From an uncultured Ruminococcus sp. (GTDB taxonomy: Bacteria; Bacillota; Clostridia; Oscillospirales; Ruminococcaceae), in contig CADAGC010000047.1 in the NCBI GenBank assembly GCA_902787365.1, positions 1 through 33,061 of the forward strand: a stretch of DNA of 33,061 nucleotides, in the 5' to 3' direction. The notes below the pieces were generated by a model that was not told the origin of the DNA, made no database searches, and saw only the letters and a list, made by a program, of their open reading frames with translations. Positions 13,212-32,037 of this stretch are shown here, one piece after another (the first letter of the stretch is position 1; each line of letters starts with the position of its first letter). Position numbers and translations under genes: made by a program.

Positions 13212-15092
13212 ATGAAACGGCTCATATCAATACTGACAGCGGCGGGCATAATGCTAAGCCATGCGGCCTTTCTACCGAACACGGCAGGCACGGCGGCGGC
13301 TGCCGACTTCAAGCCCGTCAAGATAAACGCCACAAACTTCCCCGACCCGATGTTTCGGGCGGTGATTTCGGGCAGAGAGTATGACCTTGACGGCGACGGC
13401 ACGATAAACGAATATGAGATGATAAGGCTTCGCAATATTCATTGTGACGGCTTAGGGATAAAGAGCCTTAAGGGCATTGAGCTTTTCCCCGAGCTGCGTG
13501 GGCTTTACTGCACAAACAATGACCTGACGTCTTTAGACCTGAGCGGCAACAAGCTGCTCACAGGCGTCTGGTGCAGCGACAACCCGAACCTCGGCAAGAT
13601 AGATGTATCAATGCTGCCCGACCTTTTGTGGCTCTACTGCTTCAACTGCGGGCTTACATCGCTAAACATTGATGATAACCCGCATATGGCATATCTCGAA
13701 TGCAACGACAACGCTATTAAAAAGCTTAACTTAGAAAACAACACCGAGCTTGAACATCTTATATGCAACTACTGTGAGCTGTCATCACTTGATCTTAGCA
13801 ACAATCCCAACCTTGCCCACCTTGACGCCATAGGAAACAAATTTAAAAAGCTTGACGTCACCTGCTGCCCCAAGATGAAGCGTCTTGATATATGGGATAT
13901 GCCCGGACTCGGCAGCGTAGATATAAGCAAATGCGAGGGCTTGCAGTATTACTGCTGCGCAAACAATGGTGTTACAAAGCTTGACATAAGCCACAACCCC
14001 GAGCTTACCAAGATAAACTGCTCATACAACCAGATAGAGAAGCTTGACCTGTCAAACGCACCCAAGCTTTCGGTGCTTTACTGCAACGACAACCCGATAA
14101 AGACGCTCGATGTATCAAACTGCCCCAAGCTGCACTTTTTGCAGACGTTCAACAACGGCTTCACAAAGCTTGCCATAGGCGACTGCCCGTTCCTTGTAAA
14201 GACCTATCAGCAGGGCGTCAAGGACGATGTTATGGGCGTAGCGCACGAGTGGGTGCTGGATTTCGGCGGCGATGACTCAACGCAGGGCGACAGCAAGTAT
14301 TTCCTCTCATTTGATGACAAGGTAAAGCTTGACCTTAAGGCCACCAAGCCTGCGCAGGAGACATCGGTCTACCGTGAAGATGACAACACCGACGAGAAAT
14401 ACTTGGTCACAAGAGAGCAGGCAATAGTCACTCTTTACAAAATGGCAGGCAGCCCCAAGCCCACGCTGACCAAATCGAGGTTTACCGATGTAAAGAACGG
14501 CAAGGACTACACCGCAGCACTTCTCTGGGGCGAGCAGAACAACATCTGCACGGGCTTCCCCGACATATCGTCTGACACATTCGGCGTAGGCAAGTGGGTC
14601 ACAAGGCAGGATCTGGCGCTCATGCTTATGAGATACTCAGAGGCGGTAGGCTACAATAGGTCGATAGACTTCGGCAGGTCTGATGATTTCAGCGACTACT
14701 ATGACATTGACGCCTATGCGTGGGAGGCCATAACCTGGGCTGCCACCTGGAACATCATGATAGGCAAGGGCGACCCGAACGCCCCCAAGGAGCAGCGCAG
14801 GATAGACCCTCACGGCAAGGCGACAAAGGCCGAGTTCCGTGAAATGCTCATAAGAATGTTAGAGGTCAACAATGACACCGCCGACATCTTCATAGGCAGG
14901 CTGCCGGGCGACGTCAACGACGACGGCGAGGTGAACATCAAAGACATCACCCTGCTCAAACAATCCATCGCCAAGTGGAACGTTATCATAAACGCAAAAA
15001 ACGCCGATGTAAACGGCGACAACAAAGTGGATATCAAGGATATAACCATTCTAAAGCAATACCTTGCAAAGTGGAAGGTAACGCTCAGATAA
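13212..15092 (+). CDS. Secreted EF-hand/LRR/SLH protein with dockerin
   Basis: The protein has 626 residues and starts after AGGAGG. After the signal peptide comes an EF-hand-like loop at about residues 57-69 (DLDGDGTINEYE). Internalin-like leucine-rich repeats follow at about 75-320 (LDLSNNPNLAHLDAIGN pattern), many with a Cys in the C-N-x-N or YC-x-x-N position. Residues about 398-552 show three S-layer-homology-like motifs (TREQAIVTLYKMAG, TRQDLALMLMRYSEAVG, TKAEFREMLIRMLE, with FTDV and FSDY segments). Residues 564-626 are a dockerin (DVNDDGEVNIKD, DVNGDNKVDIKD). The first dockerin repeat reads KQSIAKW where the other dockerin repeats in the window have KQYLAKW. The protein combines a possible wall-binding region with a cohesin-binding one. 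Confidence 0.9.
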   Translation: MKRLISILTAAGIMLSHAAFLPNTAGTAAAADFKPVKINATNFPDPMFRAVISGREYDLDGDGTINEYEMIRLRNIHCDGLGIKSLKGIELFPELRGLYCTNNDLTSLDLSGNKLLTGVWCSDNPNLGKIDVSMLPDLLWLYCFNCGLTSLNIDDNPHMAYLECNDNAIKKLNLENNTELEHLICNYCELSSLDLSNNPNLAHLDAIGNKFKKLDVTCCPKMKRLDIWDMPGLGSVDISKCEGLQYYCCANNGVTKLDISHNPELTKINCSYNQIEKLDLSNAPKLSVLYCNDNPIKTLDVSNCPKLHFLQTFNNGFTKLAIGDCPFLVKTYQQGVKDDVMGVAHEWVLDFGGDDSTQGDSKYFLSFDDKVKLDLKATKPAQETSVYREDDNTDEKYLVTREQAIVTLYKMAGSPKPTLTKSRFTDVKNGKDYTAALLWGEQNNICTGFPDISSDTFGVGKWVTRQDLALMLMRYSEAVGYNRSIDFGRSDDFSDYYDIDAYAWEAITWAATWNIMIGKGDPNAPKEQRRIDPHGKATKAEFREMLIRMLEVNNDTADIFIGRLPGDVNDDGEVNIKDITLLKQSIAKWNVIINAKNADVNGDNKVDIKDITILKQYLAKWKVTLR

Positions 15093-17827: not shown

Positions 17828-18058
17828 TTACTCAGCGTTAGCCTCGATGTACTTAACGATGTCACCGACAGTCTTCATGTTAGCTACCTCTTCATCGGGG
17901 ACTTCGATGTCGAACTCCTCCTCGATAGACATTACAAGGTCTACTACGTCAAGAGAATCTGCGCCGAGATCATCTGTAATAGAAGCGTCCTGTGTTACAT
18001 CGTTCTCATCAGCGTCAAGCTGGTCAACAATGATTTCCTTAACCTTGTCAAATATCAT
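17828..18058 (-). CDS. acpP: Acyl carrier protein
   Basis: The protein has 76 residues from the ATG at 18058. A TTG two codons upstream is possible but lies only 4 bases after GGAGG, while the ATG has 10. ACP carries the growing acyl chain on 4'-phosphopantetheine. The attachment site is Ser35 in [11 protein letters not shown], within the usual acidic four-helix protein. It is the last gene of the fab operon, after accA, rather than next to fabH or fabD as in many Firmicutes. A strong hairpin (18095-18121) lies in the 88-base gap before it and may let it be expressed differently from the upstream genes. Confidence 0.95.
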
Positions 18059-18094
18059 TTTCAAGCACCCTCCAATCCATAGGTTGTTTATATA

Positions 18095-18146: not shown

Positions 18147-18889
18147 TCAGACGGTGAACTCTCCGATTGCCCTAAACTTATTATAGCGTTCATTTAGCAA
18201 TTCGTCAAGCCCTTTTTGAAATTTTCTTTGTAAAGCGCCAAAAATATATTCACTTATGGCGTTTGCGGTGGCCTCGGCGTCGGTGTGAGCGCCCTCGGCA
18301 GGCTCGGGAATGATGTAGTCGCACACCTTAAGTGCCTTTAAATCCTCAGCAGTTATCTTCATAATGTCGGCCGCCTCTTTCTCACGGCTTGCGTCCTTCC
18401 AGAGGAGTGAAGCAAAGCCACGGGGCGAAATTACCGAATATATGCCTCGCCTAAGATTATCGAGATAACGGGGGTCTTAAGGGTCATAAACTCCATTATG
18501 TCTCTTGCTATGGCCTCGCCCTGACCTCTCTCCTCGGCCTCAACGCCGCAGAAAGCGCCTGCCGTGTCGATAAGGCATATCACAGGTCTGTGGAACTTCT
18601 CGGCCTGCCTTGCAAGACGAAGAGCCTTTCTGTAGCCCTCGGGATGGGGCATACCGAAGTTTGAAGCCTTGTTCTCGTTAAGGTCACGCCCCTTGACCTG
18701 CGCTATGACAGTCACGGGAACGCCCTTGAAATAGGCAACGCCGCCCTTTATAGCACCGTCGTCACCGTAGAGCCTGTCGCCGTGCATCTCAAAGAAATCA
18801 TCGAATATCAGGGGAATGTAGTCGTTGACGGTGGGTCTGCCCTTCATTCTTATTATATCAAGCCTTTTGCTTGCGGGTATGTCACTCAT
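18147..18889 (-). pseudogene. accA: Acetyl-CoA carboxylase carboxyltransferase alpha subunit, broken by an internal deletion
   Basis: Together with AccD this protein transfers carboxyl from biotin to acetyl-CoA. The first part is intact from the ATG at 18889 ([19 protein letters not shown]), which overlaps the accD stop, through [20 protein letters not shown] and [10 protein letters not shown]. The frame then reads AYIR and stops at 18431. One frame over, the protein resumes with [20 protein letters not shown] and continues to the normal end, EFTV, at 18147. Intact AccA proteins have about 21 residues between GE and IYSVISP, including the GGSGGA oxyanion segment. Here only two bases remain, so about 61 nt are missing (junction near 18443-18447). 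No other damage is seen. This is either a real recent deletion or an assembly error. Confidence 0.88.
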
Positions 18890-19760
18890 CAAAAGCCCCC
18901 CTGTTCTGCTCGTGAAGTGCAAGAAGGTGTGCAAGCGTCCTTCTTATTTTCTTTCGCTCGACTATCATATCAACAAAGCCGTTTTCGAGCATGAATTCGG
19001 CGCTCTGGAACTCGTCGGGCAGCTTCTGCCTGATCGTTCCCTCTATTACACGCCTGCCCGCAAAGCCTATGAGCACCTTCGGCTCTGCTATTATTATGTC
19101 GCCCAGTGACGCAAAGGAAGCCGTAACGCCGCCCGTCGTGGGGTCGGTCATAACTGTTATGTATAAAAGCCCTGCCTCGCTGTGACGGGCAACTGCGCCG
19201 CTCGTCTTTGCCATCTGCATAAGGGAAACTATGCCCTCCTGCATTCTTGCGCCTCCCGATGCGGTAAAGGCTATCACGGGGAGCTTATTCTCCGTCGCAT
19301 ACTCAAAAGCCCTTGTTATCTTCTCGCCCACTACCGAGCCCATTGACGCCATAAGGAAGTGCGAGTCCATAACTATTATAACTATGTCCCTGTTCCTTAT
19401 CTTGGCTGTGCCCGTTATAACAGCGTCCTTAAGGCCTGTGCGTGTTCTGAGCGCCTGCTGCTTTGCCTCGTAATCGGGGAAGTCTATGGGGTTTTTTGAC
19501 ACCATATCCTTGTCAAACTCCTGCAGGCTGCCCTTGTCAATGGTTATGTCGAGCCTCTCTTTTGCGCTTAAGCGTGAGTGGTAGTTGCAGCTGGGGCACA
19601 CCTTGCCGTTTAGGTTAAAATCCTCCGAGAAAGATACTGTGCCGCAGCGGGGGCATTTGAACATAAGGTCTTTGGGTATGTCGGGCTTTTTCGAGTCGTC
19701 ACGCTCGGGTGACGAGCTGCCCCACCTCTGCCTTACCACCGAGAAAATATCATCGAGCAT
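18882..19760 (-). CDS. accD: Acetyl-CoA carboxylase carboxyltransferase beta subunit
   Basis: The protein has 292 residues, the usual length. It pairs with AccA to form the carboxyltransferase that makes malonyl-CoA. A four-Cys zinc ribbon is present at Cys36, Cys39, Cys55 and Cys58 (CPRCG, CPSCN). The crotonase-fold core shows [12 protein letters not shown], where backbone amides form the oxyanion hole, then [13 protein letters not shown] and [14 protein letters not shown] precedes the ATG. It follows accC with a short gap and overlaps accA by 8 bases (ATGAGTGA), indicating translational coupling. Confidence 0.97.
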
Positions 19761-19781: not shown

Positions 19782-21134
19782 TTATACCAGCGGGTTTCTG
19801 TTAAGATAGCCGTTGTCATAGTCGCCTGCCTTGAAAGCATCTGTCGCTATGAGCTTAAGCTGGAAGTCGATATTGGTAGACACGCCGCCCACAACGAATT
19901 CCGAGAGCGCCCAGTTCATACGCTTTATAGCCTGCTCTCTCGTGTCGGCGTGAACTATCAGCTTTGCTATCATCGAGTCGTAATAGGGGGTTATCTCATA
20001 GCCCTGATAAGCTGCGCTGTCAACTCTCACGCCGAAGCCGCCGGGGGTGTGCAGCGAACTGATCACGCCGGGCGACGGGCGGAAGCCCTGCTCGGGGTTC
20101 TCGGCATTAATTCTGCACTCTATGGCGTGGCCTGTTATCTTTATATCGTCCTGAGTTATGTCAAGCTTCTCGTTTGCGGCTATGCGTATCTGACGGCTGA
20201 CGATGTCAATGCCCGTTACCTCTTCGGTTATCGGGTGCTCGACCTGAATTCGGGTGTTCATCTCCATAAAGAAGAAATCGCCGTTCTTGTCAAGCAGAAA
20301 CTCTATCGTACCTGCATTTGTATAGCCCGCAGCCTTAGCTGCCCTTACAGCCGCCTCGCCCATGCGCTTTCTTAAGTCGTCGCTCACCACGGGTGAGGGG
20401 GTCTCTTCAAGCACCTTCTGGTTCCTGCGCTGCATAGAGCAGTCACGCTCGCCCAAGTATACCACGTCGCCGAAGTTGTCGGCAAGAATCTGTATCTCTA
20501 TGTGCTTGGGGTTTTCTATGAATTTTTCTATGTAGACCTCGTCGTTGCCGAAGCAGGCAAGCGCCTCGGTCTTTGCCACCTTCATCTGCTCGTCAAGCTC
20601 GGCCTCTGAGTGTACTATGCGTATGCCCTTGCCGCCGCCTCCGGCAGATGCCTTTATCATAACGGGGTAGCCTATCCTCTTTGCAAGGTCGTGTGCGTAG
20701 AATTCATTCTTAACCGCACCGTCCGACCCTGTGATGACAGGCACGCCTGCGCTTTTCATAGTCTCCTTGGCCTGCGCCTTGTCGCCAAGCATCTCAATCG
20801 CCTGAGCACGGGGGCCTATAAAGGTTATGCCGCACTTTTCGCAGTATCTTGCAAACTGCGCATTCTCCGACAAAAAGCCGAAGCCCGGGTGTATCGCATC
20901 AGCGCCCGTCACCTCGCAGGCCGCAATAAGCGCCTTCATGTTGAGGTAGCTGTCCTTCGCAGGGGCTGCGCCTATGCACACCGCCTCGTCTGCTATCTGT
21001 GCGTGGAGTGCGCCCTTGTCAGCTGTCGAATACACCGCAACTGTGTGTATTCCAAGCTCTCTGCACGCACGGATTATGCGCACGGCTATCTCTCCACGGT
21101 TTGCTATCAGAACTTTTTTAAACATATTATCCAT
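19782..21134 (-). CDS. accC: Acetyl-CoA carboxylase biotin carboxylase subunit
   Basis: The protein has 450 residues, a normal length. It carboxylates the biotin on AccB using ATP and bicarbonate. The N-terminal [20 protein letters not shown], the ATP-grasp glycine loop [14 protein letters not shown] and the catalytic [16 protein letters not shown] are all present. The annotated ATG at 21134 lies 6 bases after the fabZ stop. The ATG three codons later ([11 protein letters not shown]) gives the family's usual N-terminus and is equally possible. It is part of the accB-fabZ-accC-accD-accA order typical of Firmicutes fab operons. Confidence 0.97.
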
Positions 21135-21140
21135 TCACCC

Positions 21141-21572
21141 TTATTTTATCGCAAACGTGATCTCCGCAGAAACGGCTTTCTGGCCGTCAACGGAAGCAAC
21201 TGCCTTGCCTACGCCGATAGGCCCCTTGACCTTGATTATCTCTACTTCGATGTCAAGCTTGTCGCCCGGCACTACCTGCCTGCGGAACTTGCAGTTGTTG
21301 ATGCCGCCGAAAAAGCCTATCTTGCCCTTGTTCTCCTCCATAGCGAGAAGCGCCACAGCACCTGCCTGTGCGCACATCTCGACCATGAGCACGCCCGGTG
21401 TCACGGGGTACTCGGGGAAGTGGCCTTTGAACCAGAAATCCTCTGCCTTTATGTATTTTGTGGCCTTAACCCTCTTGCCTACCTCAAGCTCGTTTACTTC
21501 GTCTATCAGTAAAAACGGGTCTCTGTGAGGGATTATCTCCTTTATCTGCTCTTTGTCAAGAACTACTGCCAT
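21141..21572 (-). CDS. fabZ: 3-hydroxyacyl-ACP dehydratase FabZ
   Basis: The protein has 143 residues. It removes water from 3-hydroxyacyl-ACP to give trans-2-enoyl-ACP, with a hot-dog fold. The family signature is clear: [14 protein letters not shown], then [21 protein letters not shown] with catalytic His and Glu, and [21 protein letters not shown] precedes the ATG. No fabA or fabM is present in the window, so the source of unsaturated acyl chains is not visible here. Confidence 0.97.
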
Positions 21573-21657: not shown

Positions 21658-22128
21658 TTATCCTATAATCATAATCGTCTGGTCAAACTCAACGCTGTCG
21701 CCGTTGTTTACAAGTATCTCCTTAACAACGCCGTCAAACTCAGAGGTTATCTCACTCATTACCTTCATGCTCTCGATGATGTAGATAACGTCGCCCTTCT
21801 TGACCTTGTCGCCTACCTGCACAAAGGGGGCTGAATCAGGTGAGGGGGCGCAGTAGAATGTGCCCACGATAGGCGATTTTACCTCGTTGCCTGCTGCCGT
21901 GGGGGCTGCCTGCTGTGCAGGAGCGGCACTTGCCTGTGCAGGAACTGCCGGGGCGGGGGGCATACCAAAGGGCGGCATAGGCGGCATGGGAACTGCCTTT
22001 TTGCCCTTAATGGTTATCTTTATGCCGTTCTCGTCCTCAATGGCTATCTCGGAAAGCTCCTTGCTGTTGACCATGTCGGCAAGTCTTCCTATATTCTCGA
22101 ATGTAAAATCAAAATCAAACTTTGACAT
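21658..22128 (-). CDS. accB: Biotin carboxyl carrier protein of acetyl-CoA carboxylase
   Basis: The protein has 156 residues. It carries biotin between AccC and the AccAD transferase. The N-terminal helical part is followed by a Pro/Ala-rich hinge at about residues 46-80. The C-terminal biotinyl domain has SPIVGTFY and the biotinylation motif ESMKVMSEI (Ser in place of the common Ala, Lys as acceptor). AAAGGAG precedes the ATG. It follows fabF in the operon. Confidence 0.96.
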   Translation of the reverse strand: MSKFDFDFTFENIGRLADMVNSKELSEIAIEDENGIKITIKGKKAVPMPPMPPFGMPPAPAVPAQASAAPAQQAAPTAAGNEVKSPIVGTFYCAPSPDSAPFVQVGDKVKKGDVIYIIESMKVMSEITSEFDGVVKEILVNNGDSVEFDQTIMIIG

Positions 22129-22160: not shown

Positions 22161-23399
22161 TTATCCCTCAAATTTCTTTATGCATATAGTCGCATTATGC
22201 CCGCCGAAGCCGAGCGAATTTGAAAGCGCACCCTTGATGTCAACATTTCTGTTTGAATCTGTTGCATAGTCAAGGTCGCATTCGGGGTCGGGGGTCTTGT
22301 AGCCGATAGTCTTGTGAATAAAGCCCTCCTTGACGGAAAGTGCCGTAACTATCGCCTCAACGCCGCCTGCTGCACCGAGCAGATGGCCTATCATGCTCTT
22401 GGTGGAGTTGATGACCGTCTTTCTTGCGGCCTCTTCACCGAGAGCAAGCTTGATAGCTGTAGTTTCGTACTTGTCGTTAAGGCCTGTAGATGTGCCGTGA
22501 GCGTTGATGTAGTTTACCTCTTCGGGCTTTAAGCCTGCCTCTTCGTAAGCGCACTTCATAGCGTATGCAGCAGCTTCGCCTGTGGGTGAGGGGCTTGTCA
22601 TATGGTAAGCATCACCTGTAGCGCCGTAGCCTGCTATCTCTGCGATGATGTTTGCGCCCCTTGCCTTTGCGTGCTCGTATTCCTCCAAGCACAGAACGCC
22701 TGCGCCCTCGCCGAGCACAAAGCCCTGACGGTTGAGGTCAAAGGGAGTGGAAGCTTCTTCTAACTTCTCAGCACGGGAGAGTGCTTTCATATTGTTGAAG
22801 CCGCTTAAAGCAAAGCGTGATATGCAGGCCTCAGAGCCGCCGCAGAGGGCAACGTCCAAATAGCCGTCCTTTATCTTTCTGAAAGCCTCGCCTATTGCGT
22901 GGGTAGCTGATGCACAGGCAGTAGTAGTGCAGAAGTTGTCGCCCTTGAAGCCTGTCTGCATAGCGACTGTGCCTGCTGCCATATTGCCTATCATCATAGG
23001 AATGAAGAACACCGATACCTTGTCGGGCTTCTCGTTGAACTTTGTGACCTCGGCCTCGGTCATGTTAAGGCCGCCGATACCTACGCCGATTATAACGCCT
23101 GCTCTGAAAGGCACTATGTCGGAAAAATCGCTGCCTGCCATTTCAAGTGCCTGCTTTGCGGCAACTGTGGCAAACTGCGTGAAGCGGTCAAGCCTTTTTG
23201 CCTCTTTCTTGTCGATGTACTCTGACGGGTCAAAATCCTTGACTGCGCCTACTATCTTTACGGGGAAATCAGATACGTCGAACTGGTCGATATATGAAAC
23301 GCCCAGCTTGTTTGCCTTGATGTTCTCCCAGTATTCCTTAACGTTCTTGCCGAGCGGGTTTACCGTGCCCATGCCCGTTATAACTACTCGTCTGCTCAT
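22161..23399 (-). CDS. fabF: 3-oxoacyl-ACP synthase II (FabF)
   Basis: The protein has 412 residues. It condenses malonyl-ACP with acyl-ACP during chain elongation. The Cys-His-His triad is visible: TTACASATHAIG (Cys near residue 163), NAHGTSTGLND, and STKSMIGHLLGAAGG. The start VVITGMGTVNPLG is typical. AAGGAGC precedes the ATG. It sits between fabG and accB in the usual order. Confidence 0.97.
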   Translation of the reverse strand: MSRRVVITGMGTVNPLGKNVKEYWENIKANKLGVSYIDQFDVSDFPVKIVGAVKDFDPSEYIDKKEAKRLDRFTQFATVAAKQALEMAGSDFSDIVPFRAGVIIGVGIGGLNMTEAEVTKFNEKPDKVSVFFIPMMIGNMAAGTVAMQTGFKGDNFCTTTACASATHAIGEAFRKIKDGYLDVALCGGSEACISRFALSGFNNMKALSRAEKLEEASTPFDLNRQGFVLGEGAGVLCLEEYEHAKARGANIIAEIAGYGATGDAYHMTSPSPTGEAAAYAMKCAYEEAGLKPEEVNYINAHGTSTGLNDKYETTAIKLALGEEAARKTVINSTKSMIGHLLGAAGGVEAIVTALSVKEGFIHKTIGYKTPDPECDLDYATDSNRNVDIKGALSNSLGFGGHNATICIKKFEG

Positions 23400-23449: not shown

Positions 23450-24184
23450 TTACATCATTATGCCGCCCGATATCTCGATGACCTGGCCTGTGACGTATGC
23501 AGCGTCCTTAGATGCCAGGAACGAAACAACGCCTGCTATGTCATCTACCTCACCGAAGCGCTTCATAGCTATCTGGTTGAGCATAGCCGCTTTCTGCTCG
23601 TCTGTGAGCTTGTCGGTCATGGGGGTCTTTATAAAGCCGGGGGCTACTGCGTTGCAGGTGATGCCACGGGAGCCGAGCTCCTTTGCAACAGTCTTTGTCA
23701 TGCCGATGATAGCCGCCTTTGTTGCGGAATAGTTCATCTGCCCCGGGTTGCCGTAAAGGCCTGCAACGGAAGCAAGATTGATTATCCTGCCCGACTTCTG
23801 CCTCATCATAACTGCGCCTGCAAAGCGGCACATATTGAACACGCTCTTCTGGTTTACAGCTATTACCGTGTCATACTGCTCCTCGCTCATTCTTGCAAGC
23901 AGGCCGTCACGGGTGATGCCTGCGTTGTTTACGAGCACATCAATGCTGCCGAAGGTGTCCTTAACTTCCTTGACGGTCTTTTCGACCTGCTCGAAGTTCG
24001 ATACGTCGCAGATGAATATTTCGCACTTTACGCCCTGTGCCTCTATCTGCGCCTTGATGTCGTTGTTCTCAAAGCTCTTGTCGCTTATGTCGTTTAAGGC
24101 TATGTCGTAGCCGTCCTTTGCAAGTCTTAGCGCTATTGCTGCGCCTATGCCTCTTGCCGAGCCTGTGATAAGTGCTGTTGCCAT
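23450..24184 (-). CDS. fabG: 3-oxoacyl-ACP reductase FabG
   Basis: The protein has 244 residues and is a short-chain dehydrogenase. It reduces 3-oxoacyl-ACP with NADPH. TGSARGIG is the cofactor loop, NNAGITRDGLL the structural motif, with catalytic Ser in LASVAGLYG and the YSATK dyad. GGISGG-like ISGGIMM ends the protein. GGAGG precedes the ATG. It lies 16 bases after the esterase gene, in the place where fabG follows fabD in many Firmicutes; here fabD is absent. Confidence 0.96.
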   Translation of the reverse strand: MATALITGSARGIGAAIALRLAKDGYDIALNDISDKSFENNDIKAQIEAQGVKCEIFICDVSNFEQVEKTVKEVKDTFGSIDVLVNNAGITRDGLLARMSEEQYDTVIAVNQKSVFNMCRFAGAVMMRQKSGRIINLASVAGLYGNPGQMNYSATKAAIIGMTKTVAKELGSRGITCNAVAPGFIKTPMTDKLTDEQKAAMLNQIAMKRFGEVDDIAGVVSFLASKDAAYVTGQVIEISGGIMM

Positions 24185-25051: not shown

Positions 25052-25777
25052 TTATCCAAGTCGTGTTAAGAATATGGTATTGTTTTCTTTGTCTATTATC
25101 ACCGCTGAGGTGTGGGGGTGGTCAGCAGCAAGGTTGGTTTCGATCACATATATCTGCGCACTTTTGTCAAAGCGATACTCATCCACATTATGGCCTAAGT
25201 ATAGCCAGATCCAATTGAAATTACCTTTTTTATTATGGTCAAGGTCGGGTATGCGCCCGTCATAGATAAGCTCGTTTTCGTATTCGTTAAGAGTGAAGCT
25301 GTATTTTGCCTGCTTTGAAAACTTCTCATCATAGCGCTTCAGCGTGTCTTCATCAGTCTCAAAGTACACCGCATAATGCGCTGTGCCCTGCATAACGGTG
25401 GGCATATAGTTAAACTTGAATTCGCCCTTTACATCGTCTTCAAAGCCCTCAAAATAATCGGGCTCGTCATAGCCGTAAAGGCCGACATATGCCCGCTGTA
25501 TCGGGTATTTCCACAAAGAATCCGATTTTATTCCAAGGGGCGCTACGTCAAAGCCTATCCATAGCACTATGACAGTTGCCGATATCTTAAGTGCTGTCTT
25601 GCCCTTTTTGGAAAGGCCCCATAAGCATAACAGTATGATCGAAACCAATATCGCCCTTTTGTCGCCGAGCAGTATGCACCAGACCGCAGACAAAGCAGCC
25701 AGCACCGCAAGGGCTATGATATGCGCTTTGGTAAATCTTCTGCGTGGCTTTTCGGGCGCTTCGCCCTGCTGTGTCAT
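25052..25777 (-). CDS. Unknown membrane protein in the fab operon
   Basis: The protein has 241 residues. Its short charged N-terminus is followed by three hydrophobic segments, at about residues 19-40, 42-57 and 62-82, then a soluble domain of about 155 residues. The soluble part is rich in Tyr, Phe, Asp and Asn (YVGLYGYDEPDYFEGF, FNWIWLYLGHNVDEY) and probably faces the outside. I recognise no family. The ATG overlaps the fabK stop codon (ATGA), so translation is coupled to fabK. It is followed 17 bases later by the esterase lipoprotein. Function unknown. Confidence 0.8.
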   Translation of the reverse strand: MTQQGEAPEKPRRRFTKAHIIALAVLAALSAVWCILLGDKRAILVSIILLCLWGLSKKGKTALKISATVIVLWIGFDVAPLGIKSDSLWKYPIQRAYVGLYGYDEPDYFEGFEDDVKGEFKFNYMPTVMQGTAHYAVYFETDEDTLKRYDEKFSKQAKYSFTLNEYENELIYDGRIPDLDHNKKGNFNWIWLYLGHNVDEYRFDKSAQIYVIETNLAADHPHTSAVIIDKENNTIFLTRLG

Positions 25778-26712
25778 CTGCTGAGTATTTCCTGCGCCTG
25801 CGTGAACATTTCCTCTATCATGTCCTTTGCAGGCTCGGTCTTTTTAACAAGGCCTGCTATTGCGCCGCAGAGGAACGAGCCTTCTTCTAAGTTGCCGTCC
25901 TGAACGGCCTTTCTAAGTGAGCCGAGAGTGATCTTTTCAAACTCATCGGGTGTGAGTGTGCCGTTCATCTCGCCGCTTGCAAGCTTCTTTGAGAACTTGG
26001 TCTTTACGTTGCGGCAGGGGTGGCCTGTAGTTCTGCCTGTTACTATCGAGTCTGTATCTTTAGCGCCCACTACAAGTTCCTTGTAGGTGGGGTGTATCTG
26101 GCATTCGTCTGCTGCAAGGAAGCGTGTTCCAAGCTGCACGCCCTCAGCGCCCAGCATAAACGCTGCCGCAATACCTCTGCCGTCAGCTATGCCGCCTGCT
26201 GCGATAACGGGTATCTGCAAAGCATCAACCACCTGCGGAACAAGGCACATTGTGGTGTTCTCGCCTATGTGGCCGCCGCTCTCTGTGCCCTCTGCAACTA
26301 CCGCATCAGCGCCTGCTCTCTCCATTCTCTTTGCAAGAGCCACCGACGGGATAACGGGTATCACCTTGATGCCTGCTTCTTTCCACGCAGCCATGAACTT
26401 GCCGGGGTTGCCTGCACCTGTTGTGACAACGGGCACGCCCTCGTCAATAACAAGCTGTGCAAGGTCATCTGCATTGGGTGACATGAGCATTATGTTCACA
26501 CCGAAAGGCTTGTCACCTACTGCTGCCTTTGTAAGCCTTATCTGCTCACGAAGATAGTCTATCGGTGCGCTGCCGCCTGCGATAAGGCCGAGACCGCCTG
26601 CATTGGATACGGCAGAAGCAAGTGTGTGCTCTGCTATCCATGCCATACCGCCCTGTATTATGGGGTATTTTATTCCTAAAAGCTCGGTTATGCGTGTTGT
26701 CTGAATGTTCAT
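25774..26712 (-). CDS. fabK: Enoyl-ACP reductase II (FabK)
   Basis: The protein has 312 residues. It is an FMN-dependent TIM-barrel enzyme that reduces trans-2-enoyl-ACP to acyl-ACP, the last step of each cycle, and replaces FabI in this group. Seen: the N-terminus LLGIKYPIIQGGMAWIAEH, AVSNAGGLGLIAGG, GADAVVAEGTESGGHIGE, IAAGGIADGRGIAAAFMLGAEGVQLGTRF. It resembles 2-nitropropane dioxygenases, but the operon context fixes the assignment. AAGGAG for this gene lies inside the end of the preceding gene. Confidence 0.95.
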   Translation of the reverse strand: MNIQTTRITELLGIKYPIIQGGMAWIAEHTLASAVSNAGGLGLIAGGSAPIDYLREQIRLTKAAVGDKPFGVNIMLMSPNADDLAQLVIDEGVPVVTTGAGNPGKFMAAWKEAGIKVIPVIPSVALAKRMERAGADAVVAEGTESGGHIGENTTMCLVPQVVDALQIPVIAAGGIADGRGIAAAFMLGAEGVQLGTRFLAADECQIHPTYKELVVGAKDTDSIVTGRTTGHPCRNVKTKFSKKLASGEMNGTLTPDEFEKITLGSLRKAVQDGNLEEGSFLCGAIAGLVKKTEPAKDMIEEMFTQAQEILSR

Positions 26713-27798: not shown

Positions 27799-28809
27799 TC
27801 AGTATTCAAAAATCACAGCCGCATATGTAAGGCCGCCGCCGAAGCCGACAAAGCACACCTTGTCGCCTCTCTTTATCCTGCCCTCGGCCACCGCATCACA
27901 GAAAGCTATCGGTATAGATGCCGAGGAGGTGTTGCCGTAGCGGTCGATATACACTACCATTTTATCCATTGAAACGCCTAAGTTCTTGGCGGCTGTTTCG
28001 ATTATGCGCACGTTTGCCTGATGAGGAACTATGCAGTCAAGCTCGTCGGGGGTCATGCCCGCCTTTTCGCAGGCGTGAAGCACCGCATCGGGCAGAGCCT
28101 TAGTGGCGAACTTGTAGACCTCCTTGCCGTCCTGCGCAAAGAAATAATCCTTGGTCTGCGGCATAGCCATATCGAAATCCTCTTCCTTGGTGCGGAAGAC
28201 GTTCTCGCTCTTTAAAGCACGGGAAACGAGGAACTTAGCGCCGTTTCCGTCAGCGCCCAGGTATGATGACCAGAGGGTGCTATTGTTTCTCTCCAGCACG
28301 AAAGCCGCAGCGCCGTCGCCGAAGAGTATGCAGCTTGAACGGTCGGTGTAGTCAACGAACTTTGAAAGCTCCTCGGTGGCAACTAACAGCACTGTGTCAA
28401 CCCCGTCCTCACTCTGGAGGTATCTCTTAGCCATATCAAGGCCGTAGTCAAAGCCCGTGCAGGCGCAGTTGATGTCCATTACCATGCAGCCCGCAGCCCC
28501 GATCTCACGCTGAATGAGCGCAGCTTCAGAGGGGGTGTAGAAATCGGGCGTACAGGTAGAAACTATTATAAGGTCTATATCCCCTGCAGTGATGCCCGCA
28601 TCGGCTATGGCCTTTTTTGCAGCCTCAGCGCCTAAGTAGTAGTTCGGCTCACCGTTTGTTATATGGCGGGTCTTTATGCCCGTTCTCTGTGTTATCCACT
28701 CATCAGAGGTGTCTACTATTTTTGAGAACATCTCATTGTCTGCTATCAGCTCGGGCACGAAGCTTCCTATTCCCTTGATGTGTACCCCGTAAGTGTTTTT
28801 TGTCGGCAC
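27799..28809 (-). CDS. fabH: 3-oxoacyl-ACP synthase III (FabH)
   Basis: The protein has 336 residues. It starts chain synthesis by condensing acetyl-CoA or another short acyl-CoA with malonyl-ACP. The start is GTG at 28809, 9 bases after GGAGG. Seen: DEWITQRTGIKTRHI, the catalytic Cys in NCACTGFDYGL, His in VPHQANVRI, and Asn in YGNTSSASIP. It is the first gene of the fab operon, with the AT-rich promoter region upstream. The acyl-CoA choice (straight or branched) cannot be read from sequence. Confidence 0.96.
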   Translation of the reverse strand: MPTKNTYGVHIKGIGSFVPELIADNEMFSKIVDTSDEWITQRTGIKTRHITNGEPNYYLGAEAAKKAIADAGITAGDIDLIIVSTCTPDFYTPSEAALIQREIGAAGCMVMDINCACTGFDYGLDMAKRYLQSEDGVDTVLLVATEELSKFVDYTDRSSCILFGDGAAAFVLERNNSTLWSSYLGADGNGAKFLVSRALKSENVFRTKEEDFDMAMPQTKDYFFAQDGKEVYKFATKALPDAVLHACEKAGMTPDELDCIVPHQANVRIIETAAKNLGVSMDKMVVYIDRYGNTSSASIPIAFCDAVAEGRIKRGDKVCFVGFGGGLTYAAVIFEY

Positions 28810-32025: not shown

Positions 32026-32037
32026 CAGGTGAAGATT

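Follow-up and report, generated by a model that had tools for sequence, protein, structure and literature searches.

Has a rumen Ruminococcus lost one subunit of its acetyl-CoA carboxylase while keeping the rest of its fatty-acid genes, or was the loss made when its genome was assembled? The question is raised by a stretch of 33,061 nucleotides (nt), hereafter the window, which is the entire contig G000:C47 (CADAGC010000047.1) of a 2.9-Mb draft genome of an uncultured Ruminococcus sp. (GCA_902787365.1, hereafter G000) with 137 contigs, 93.75% completeness and 0.21% contamination. Within it, accA, the gene for the carboxyltransferase alpha subunit of acetyl-CoA carboxylase, lies on the minus strand at 18147-18889, where it lacks exactly 61 nt and is split into two frames. 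We consider this loss to be probably an assembly artefact, and the living bacterium would most likely carry an ordinary intact accA. An artefact is favoured because both pieces of the gene show purifying selection, two more clean deletions occur in the same assembly, the assembly is scaffolded with N gaps, and the pathway is otherwise intact. Among records that carry names, the closest are metagenome-assembled Ruminococcus genomes, recovered from the rumen, the omasum and other gut sites.

A gap of 61 nt splits accA

The gene is read as two pieces that meet near 18444-18446:
18431-18889, minus strand: accA N-terminal piece, 152 codons; matches TIGR00513 and NF004344, and PF03255 at positions 49-196
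18147-18443, minus strand: accA C-terminal piece, which lies in the -1 frame and runs to the normal stop; matches PF03255 at positions 213-310, with an NF004344 match of 18147-18362
18444-18446, minus strand: junction of the 61-nt loss, as measured against all usable relatives; the exact base is uncertain by about 2 nt

The N-terminal frame opens with an ATG at 18889, so placed that the start of accA overlaps the end of accD (at 18882), and closes at a premature stop (18431-18433) after the residues ILGEAYIR. The size of the loss is given by the spacing between the two pieces, which is -13 nt in the window. Of 80 loci taken from other genomes, 79 have a spacing of 48 nt; in the remaining one, L067, the contig edge is reached before the C-terminal piece. 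The congener G001 (L005), counted in addition to these, has 48 nt as well, whereas five further congener loci lie on the contigs already represented by L014-L018. Among the relatives' codons that face the gap are those for GGSGGA, a motif that presumably has a role in the AccA transferase. A literature search on the AccA oxyanion hole found no papers, and the pertinent passages of PMC5534430 describe a related fold and do not cover AccA itself.

Both pieces match accA equivalog models (best E-values 6e-63 and 1.2e-15, each piece alone falling under the equivalog cut-off), so their likeness to accA is, by these models, no chance resemblance. Both ends of the protein fit the family (TIGR00513, PF03255), and the gene stands beside accD in an acc/fab cluster, the same neighbourhood as in the 80 comparison loci; the feature of the family that it lacks is a single continuous frame with GGSGGA, 61 nt being absent and the frame changed. 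An intact counterpart occurs in Ruminococcus sp. RGIG7024 (L014/L007, G004), at the same place in the operon after accD. Its DNA is about 90-92% identical to the window over the flanks, and the two pieces are 96% and 93% identical in protein; it differs in that the 61 nt are there and the gene runs from its ATG through 267 codons in a single frame.

Both pieces are under purifying selection

Between the window and RGIG7024 (L014), the ratio of non-synonymous to synonymous substitution rates (dN/dS) is 0.047 for the N-terminal piece and 0.095 for the C-terminal piece, with 0.046 for accD and 0.007 for accC. When the changes in accA are polarised with G001, the window branch carries 18 synonymous changes and 1 non-synonymous change, and the RGIG7024 branch 21 and 5. 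At most one non-synonymous change in 19 has a probability of 2e-10 under neutral proportions, assuming that 75% of changes are non-synonymous. The relaxed selection of an evolutionary pseudogene is not seen in this 18:1 ratio, although a very recent loss would give the same ratio. Because both pieces show such strong purifying selection, the lesion is, as far as sequence can tell, either very young or not real.

A preliminary description of this DNA had proposed that about 61 nt were lost with a change of frame, that the GGSGGA region went with them, and that both flanks were preserved. All of this holds: the loss is exactly 61 nt by comparison with the 79 loci, GGSGGA is present where relatives face the gap, and selection has kept both pieces.

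Similar deletions and mis-sized gaps occur in the same assembly

Sixty 20-kb stretches of G000 and the window were screened against 80 stretches of 20 kb from G001, which yielded 208 G000 genes aligned at the DNA level. Three of them carry a clean, frame-breaking internal deletion with good flanks. Besides the -61 of accA, these are, relative to G001, a deletion of -88 in a gene for the carbamoyl-phosphate synthase large subunit (L110 near 4186, on G000:C13) and one of -110 in a gene for a 639-amino-acid MORN-repeat protein (L233 near 10603, on G000:C18). The MORN-repeat gene is 99.1% identical to G001 in DNA, far above most compared genes, and was perhaps recently transferred.

As a control, we took 680 copies of ten fab-cluster genes in the 80 other loci, of which 616 were covered over at least 85%. 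None of the 680 is split between frames, and two have an in-frame stop, one in the accA of L062 and one in the accD of L067; both genes are otherwise well conserved and belong to other assemblies. Set against the 616 copies, G000 shows an excess of deletions (Fisher p 0.016 with accA, 0.063 without it). Lesions similar to that of accA do occur elsewhere in the assembly, and the excess is borderline once accA is left out. Ordinary gene decay gives one-base insertions or deletions and stop codons too; the G000 lesions are of 61-110 nt.

The three counted deletions come from 52 gap events that passed the flank filter, 14 of which were not a multiple of 3. The eleven others measure -97, -23, -20, -17, -14, -13, -11, -8, -2, +1 and +1. 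The event of -97 lies in L100, at a contig start, in a pair with 84% protein and 79% DNA identity and many compensating gaps. For the events in L098-L117 and L160-L179 a protein screen showed no broken frame, except for the -2 event (L113/L217), which was flagged by the reverse screen on the G001 side; near 10925 of L217 (G001:C2) the frame of the G001 gene changes, and the counterpart in G000 is open (L113:8411-10384, 98.6% identical). Events in L234, L235, L236 and L239 were taken as alignment noise without individual checking. A 60%-identical pair near window position 32028 (-22), flagged by the protein screen, was taken as a spurious pairing, and a DNA search of one G001 stretch against G000 for more deletions was too scattered for use.

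The same 60 stretches hold four runs of N (36, 5, 13 and 5). G000 is therefore scaffolded. At L178 a run of 5 takes the place of about 23 nt present in G001, and at L101 a run of 36 replaces a stretch that measures about 41 nt in copies of a repeated element. Because these two runs differ in length from their counterparts, the assembly contains joins of poorly known gap length. Microhomology at the deletion joins, judged from relatives, amounts to at most about 2 nt. In relatives' accA copies the missing stretch ranks, among 107, 13th for guanine-plus-cytosine (GC) content and 9th for folding energy. No unusual GC content or folding is visible as a common cause of the three deletions, because the stretches deleted from the carbamoyl-phosphate synthase and MORN-repeat genes do not stand out.

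The rest of the fatty-acid pathway is intact

The neighbours of accA in the window are as follows:
18882-19760, minus strand: accD, intact, overlapping the accA start (TIGR00515)
19782-21134, minus strand: accC, intact (NF004085/TIGR00514)
21141-21572, minus strand: fabZ, intact (NF000582)
21658-22128, minus strand: accB, biotin carboxyl carrier protein, intact (TIGR00531)
22161-23399, minus strand: fabF, intact (TIGR03150)
23450-24184, minus strand: fabG, intact (TIGR01830)
25774-26712, minus strand: fabK, intact (TIGR03151)
27799-28809, minus strand: fabH, intact (NF006829/TIGR00747)
17828-18064, minus strand: acpP, acyl carrier protein, intact frame; named from sequence and position only

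The fabD gene is absent from the window and is found intact on another contig (G000:C9:205-1050). The preliminary description had spoken of an otherwise complete fab operon, which is right for the remaining window genes and not for fabD. A fatty-acid auxotroph in which the type II fatty-acid synthesis (FASII) pathway is absent beyond accA is not what G000 looks like: fabD, fabF, fabG, fabH, fabK, fabZ, accB, accC and accD are all intact.

Downstream of accA, acpP is found in 78 of 81 loci (tblastn). Upstream of it, the 3' end of accA contains a sigma-70-like promoter match (18180-18208, minus strand; TTGACG, 17 nt, TATAAT; 11 of 12 positions), which may drive acpP. Of 78 loci, 27 have the motif in its strict form and 60 in a loose one. 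In the promoter region (codons 72-91 of the C-terminal piece) the six closest loci share the window's codons at 111 of 120 positions, compared with 36 of 66 over codons 61-71, a conservation that is partly forced by the protein sequence and was counted with no shuffle control on the loci.

On the other side of acpP, between 2404 and 17747, many proteins encoded on both strands end in dockerin-like repeats (LPGDVNGDG...LLKQYLAKW), and one has leucine-rich repeats; Pfam confirms a dockerin for 13212-15092 only.

Ten tested relatives without accA also lack fabF, and no replacement is evident

A PF03255 match (E 1e-3 or better) is present in 345 of 396 genomes of the family and in 257 of the 283 good ones, leaving 26 of the latter without; some of the matches are weak and could represent other carboxyltransferases. 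We looked for fabF in 10 of the 51 genomes without an accA match, all at least 94% complete, and found it in none (G035, G050, G074, G087, G093, G108, G111, G153, G159 and G165), as though those ten genomes had no fatty-acid pathway. In G000, G001 and G006, by the same test, fabF is present. Natural loss of accA seems to go together with loss of the pathway, because all ten tested relatives without accA are also without fabF, and the pattern of those ten differs from that of G000, where accA alone is damaged and the pathway is otherwise kept.

The preliminary description had named three possible causes: another copy of accA, uptake of fatty acids or a wrong assembly. A PF03255 search of the 93.75% complete G000 found only the two pieces and no second accA, which, the genome being incomplete, cannot be fully excluded. 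Matches to PF01039 are AccD, the N-terminal piece of accA and one 465-amino-acid protein on C52, a carboxyltransferase with at most a hypothetical activity on acetyl-CoA, which we did not accept as an accA substitute. Contig C35 carries a FakA-like gene with an open frame of 559 amino acids, and C80 a DegV/FakB-like gene, so that fatty acids may be taken up via such proteins. A suspected broken second FakA-like gene on C5 was set aside, since the match lies in a separate 88-amino-acid frame that looks like a stand-alone small gene. Of the three causes, a wrong assembly is the best supported.

Weighing the explanations

A direct join across an unassembled stretch would be a simple explanation of the accA gap. 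Two sequence pieces flanking a short stretch that had not been assembled would have been joined directly and the intervening sequence dropped, so that the loss would be a product of computation, with the cell's own gene untouched; for the exact step we infer either contig joining or gap closing. Several points weigh against this. The deletions in the carbamoyl-phosphate synthase and MORN-repeat genes could be real, because a second full carbamoyl-phosphate synthase copy lies on G000:C87 and the MORN-repeat gene has, to our knowledge, no essential role. The excess of deletions is only borderline without accA (p 0.063), the N gaps are few (four in 1.2 Mb) and seen to be mis-sized in just two places, one unique and one in a repeated element, and microhomology had to be judged from relatives.

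Were the 61-nt deletion real and very recent, accA would be inactivated, no malonyl-CoA would be made, and fatty acids from outside would be activated by FakA and FakB. The presence of FakA-like and DegV/FakB-like genes, the lack of a second accA in the G000 search and the fact that accA loss is not rare in the family speak for such an event, but we think it unlikely, given that the ten tested relatives lack fabF as well whereas G000 keeps the other pathway genes, that both accA pieces are under purifying selection, and that two more deletions of like kind lie in the same assembly. It is much less probable still that intact and deleted cells were mixed and the assembler chose the deleted path. 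Mixed strains are usual in metagenome-derived genomes, which counts for such a minority variant, and the relatives in the collections are mostly metagenome-derived by their record titles, but G000 yielded no further copy of the locus and nothing else supports it. Hardly credible at all is an accA that works as it stands, its two pieces jointly expressed by ribosomal frameshift or forming a split enzyme. Good codons are indeed kept in both pieces, but the lost ones include GGSGGA, kept in aligned relatives, which a frameshift could not restore because its codons are gone; by eye, there is also no X-XXY-YYZ slippery heptamer at the overlap.

Relation to known cases and significance

An artefact of assembly, the explanation that we prefer, has precedent. 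According to the pertinent passages of Cooley and Wright (PMC11017572), many putative pseudogenes in public genomes arise from assembly. The accA case fits these spurious pseudogenes, with the difference that its cause is read here from sequence alone; those passages count frameshifts and internal stops in general, whereas accA has a blunt loss within a class of 60-110 nt. One narrow literature search on scaffolds and frameshifts in metagenome-assembled genomes found no papers. FASII bypass by exogenous fatty acids, and fatty-acid auxotrophy, are described, for example for S. aureus, in the relevant parts of PMC5059476 and PMC7240157; G000 resembles the organisms treated there in having fatty-acid kinase-like genes and differs in that its pathway is otherwise kept, with no sign of auxotrophy.

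The locus calls for caution, as metabolic loss can be mimicked in a draft genome when an essential gene has a clean gap that breaks its frame. There is a small chance that the deletion is real and was caught just after the event, in a rumen Ruminococcus that is newly without acetyl-CoA carboxylase, keeps all other genes of the pathway intact and lives on outside fatty acids. The locus would then show how gut bacteria of the Ruminococcaceae type begin to lose fatty-acid synthesis, accA being among the first genes to go before the pathway-less state of the tested relatives is reached.
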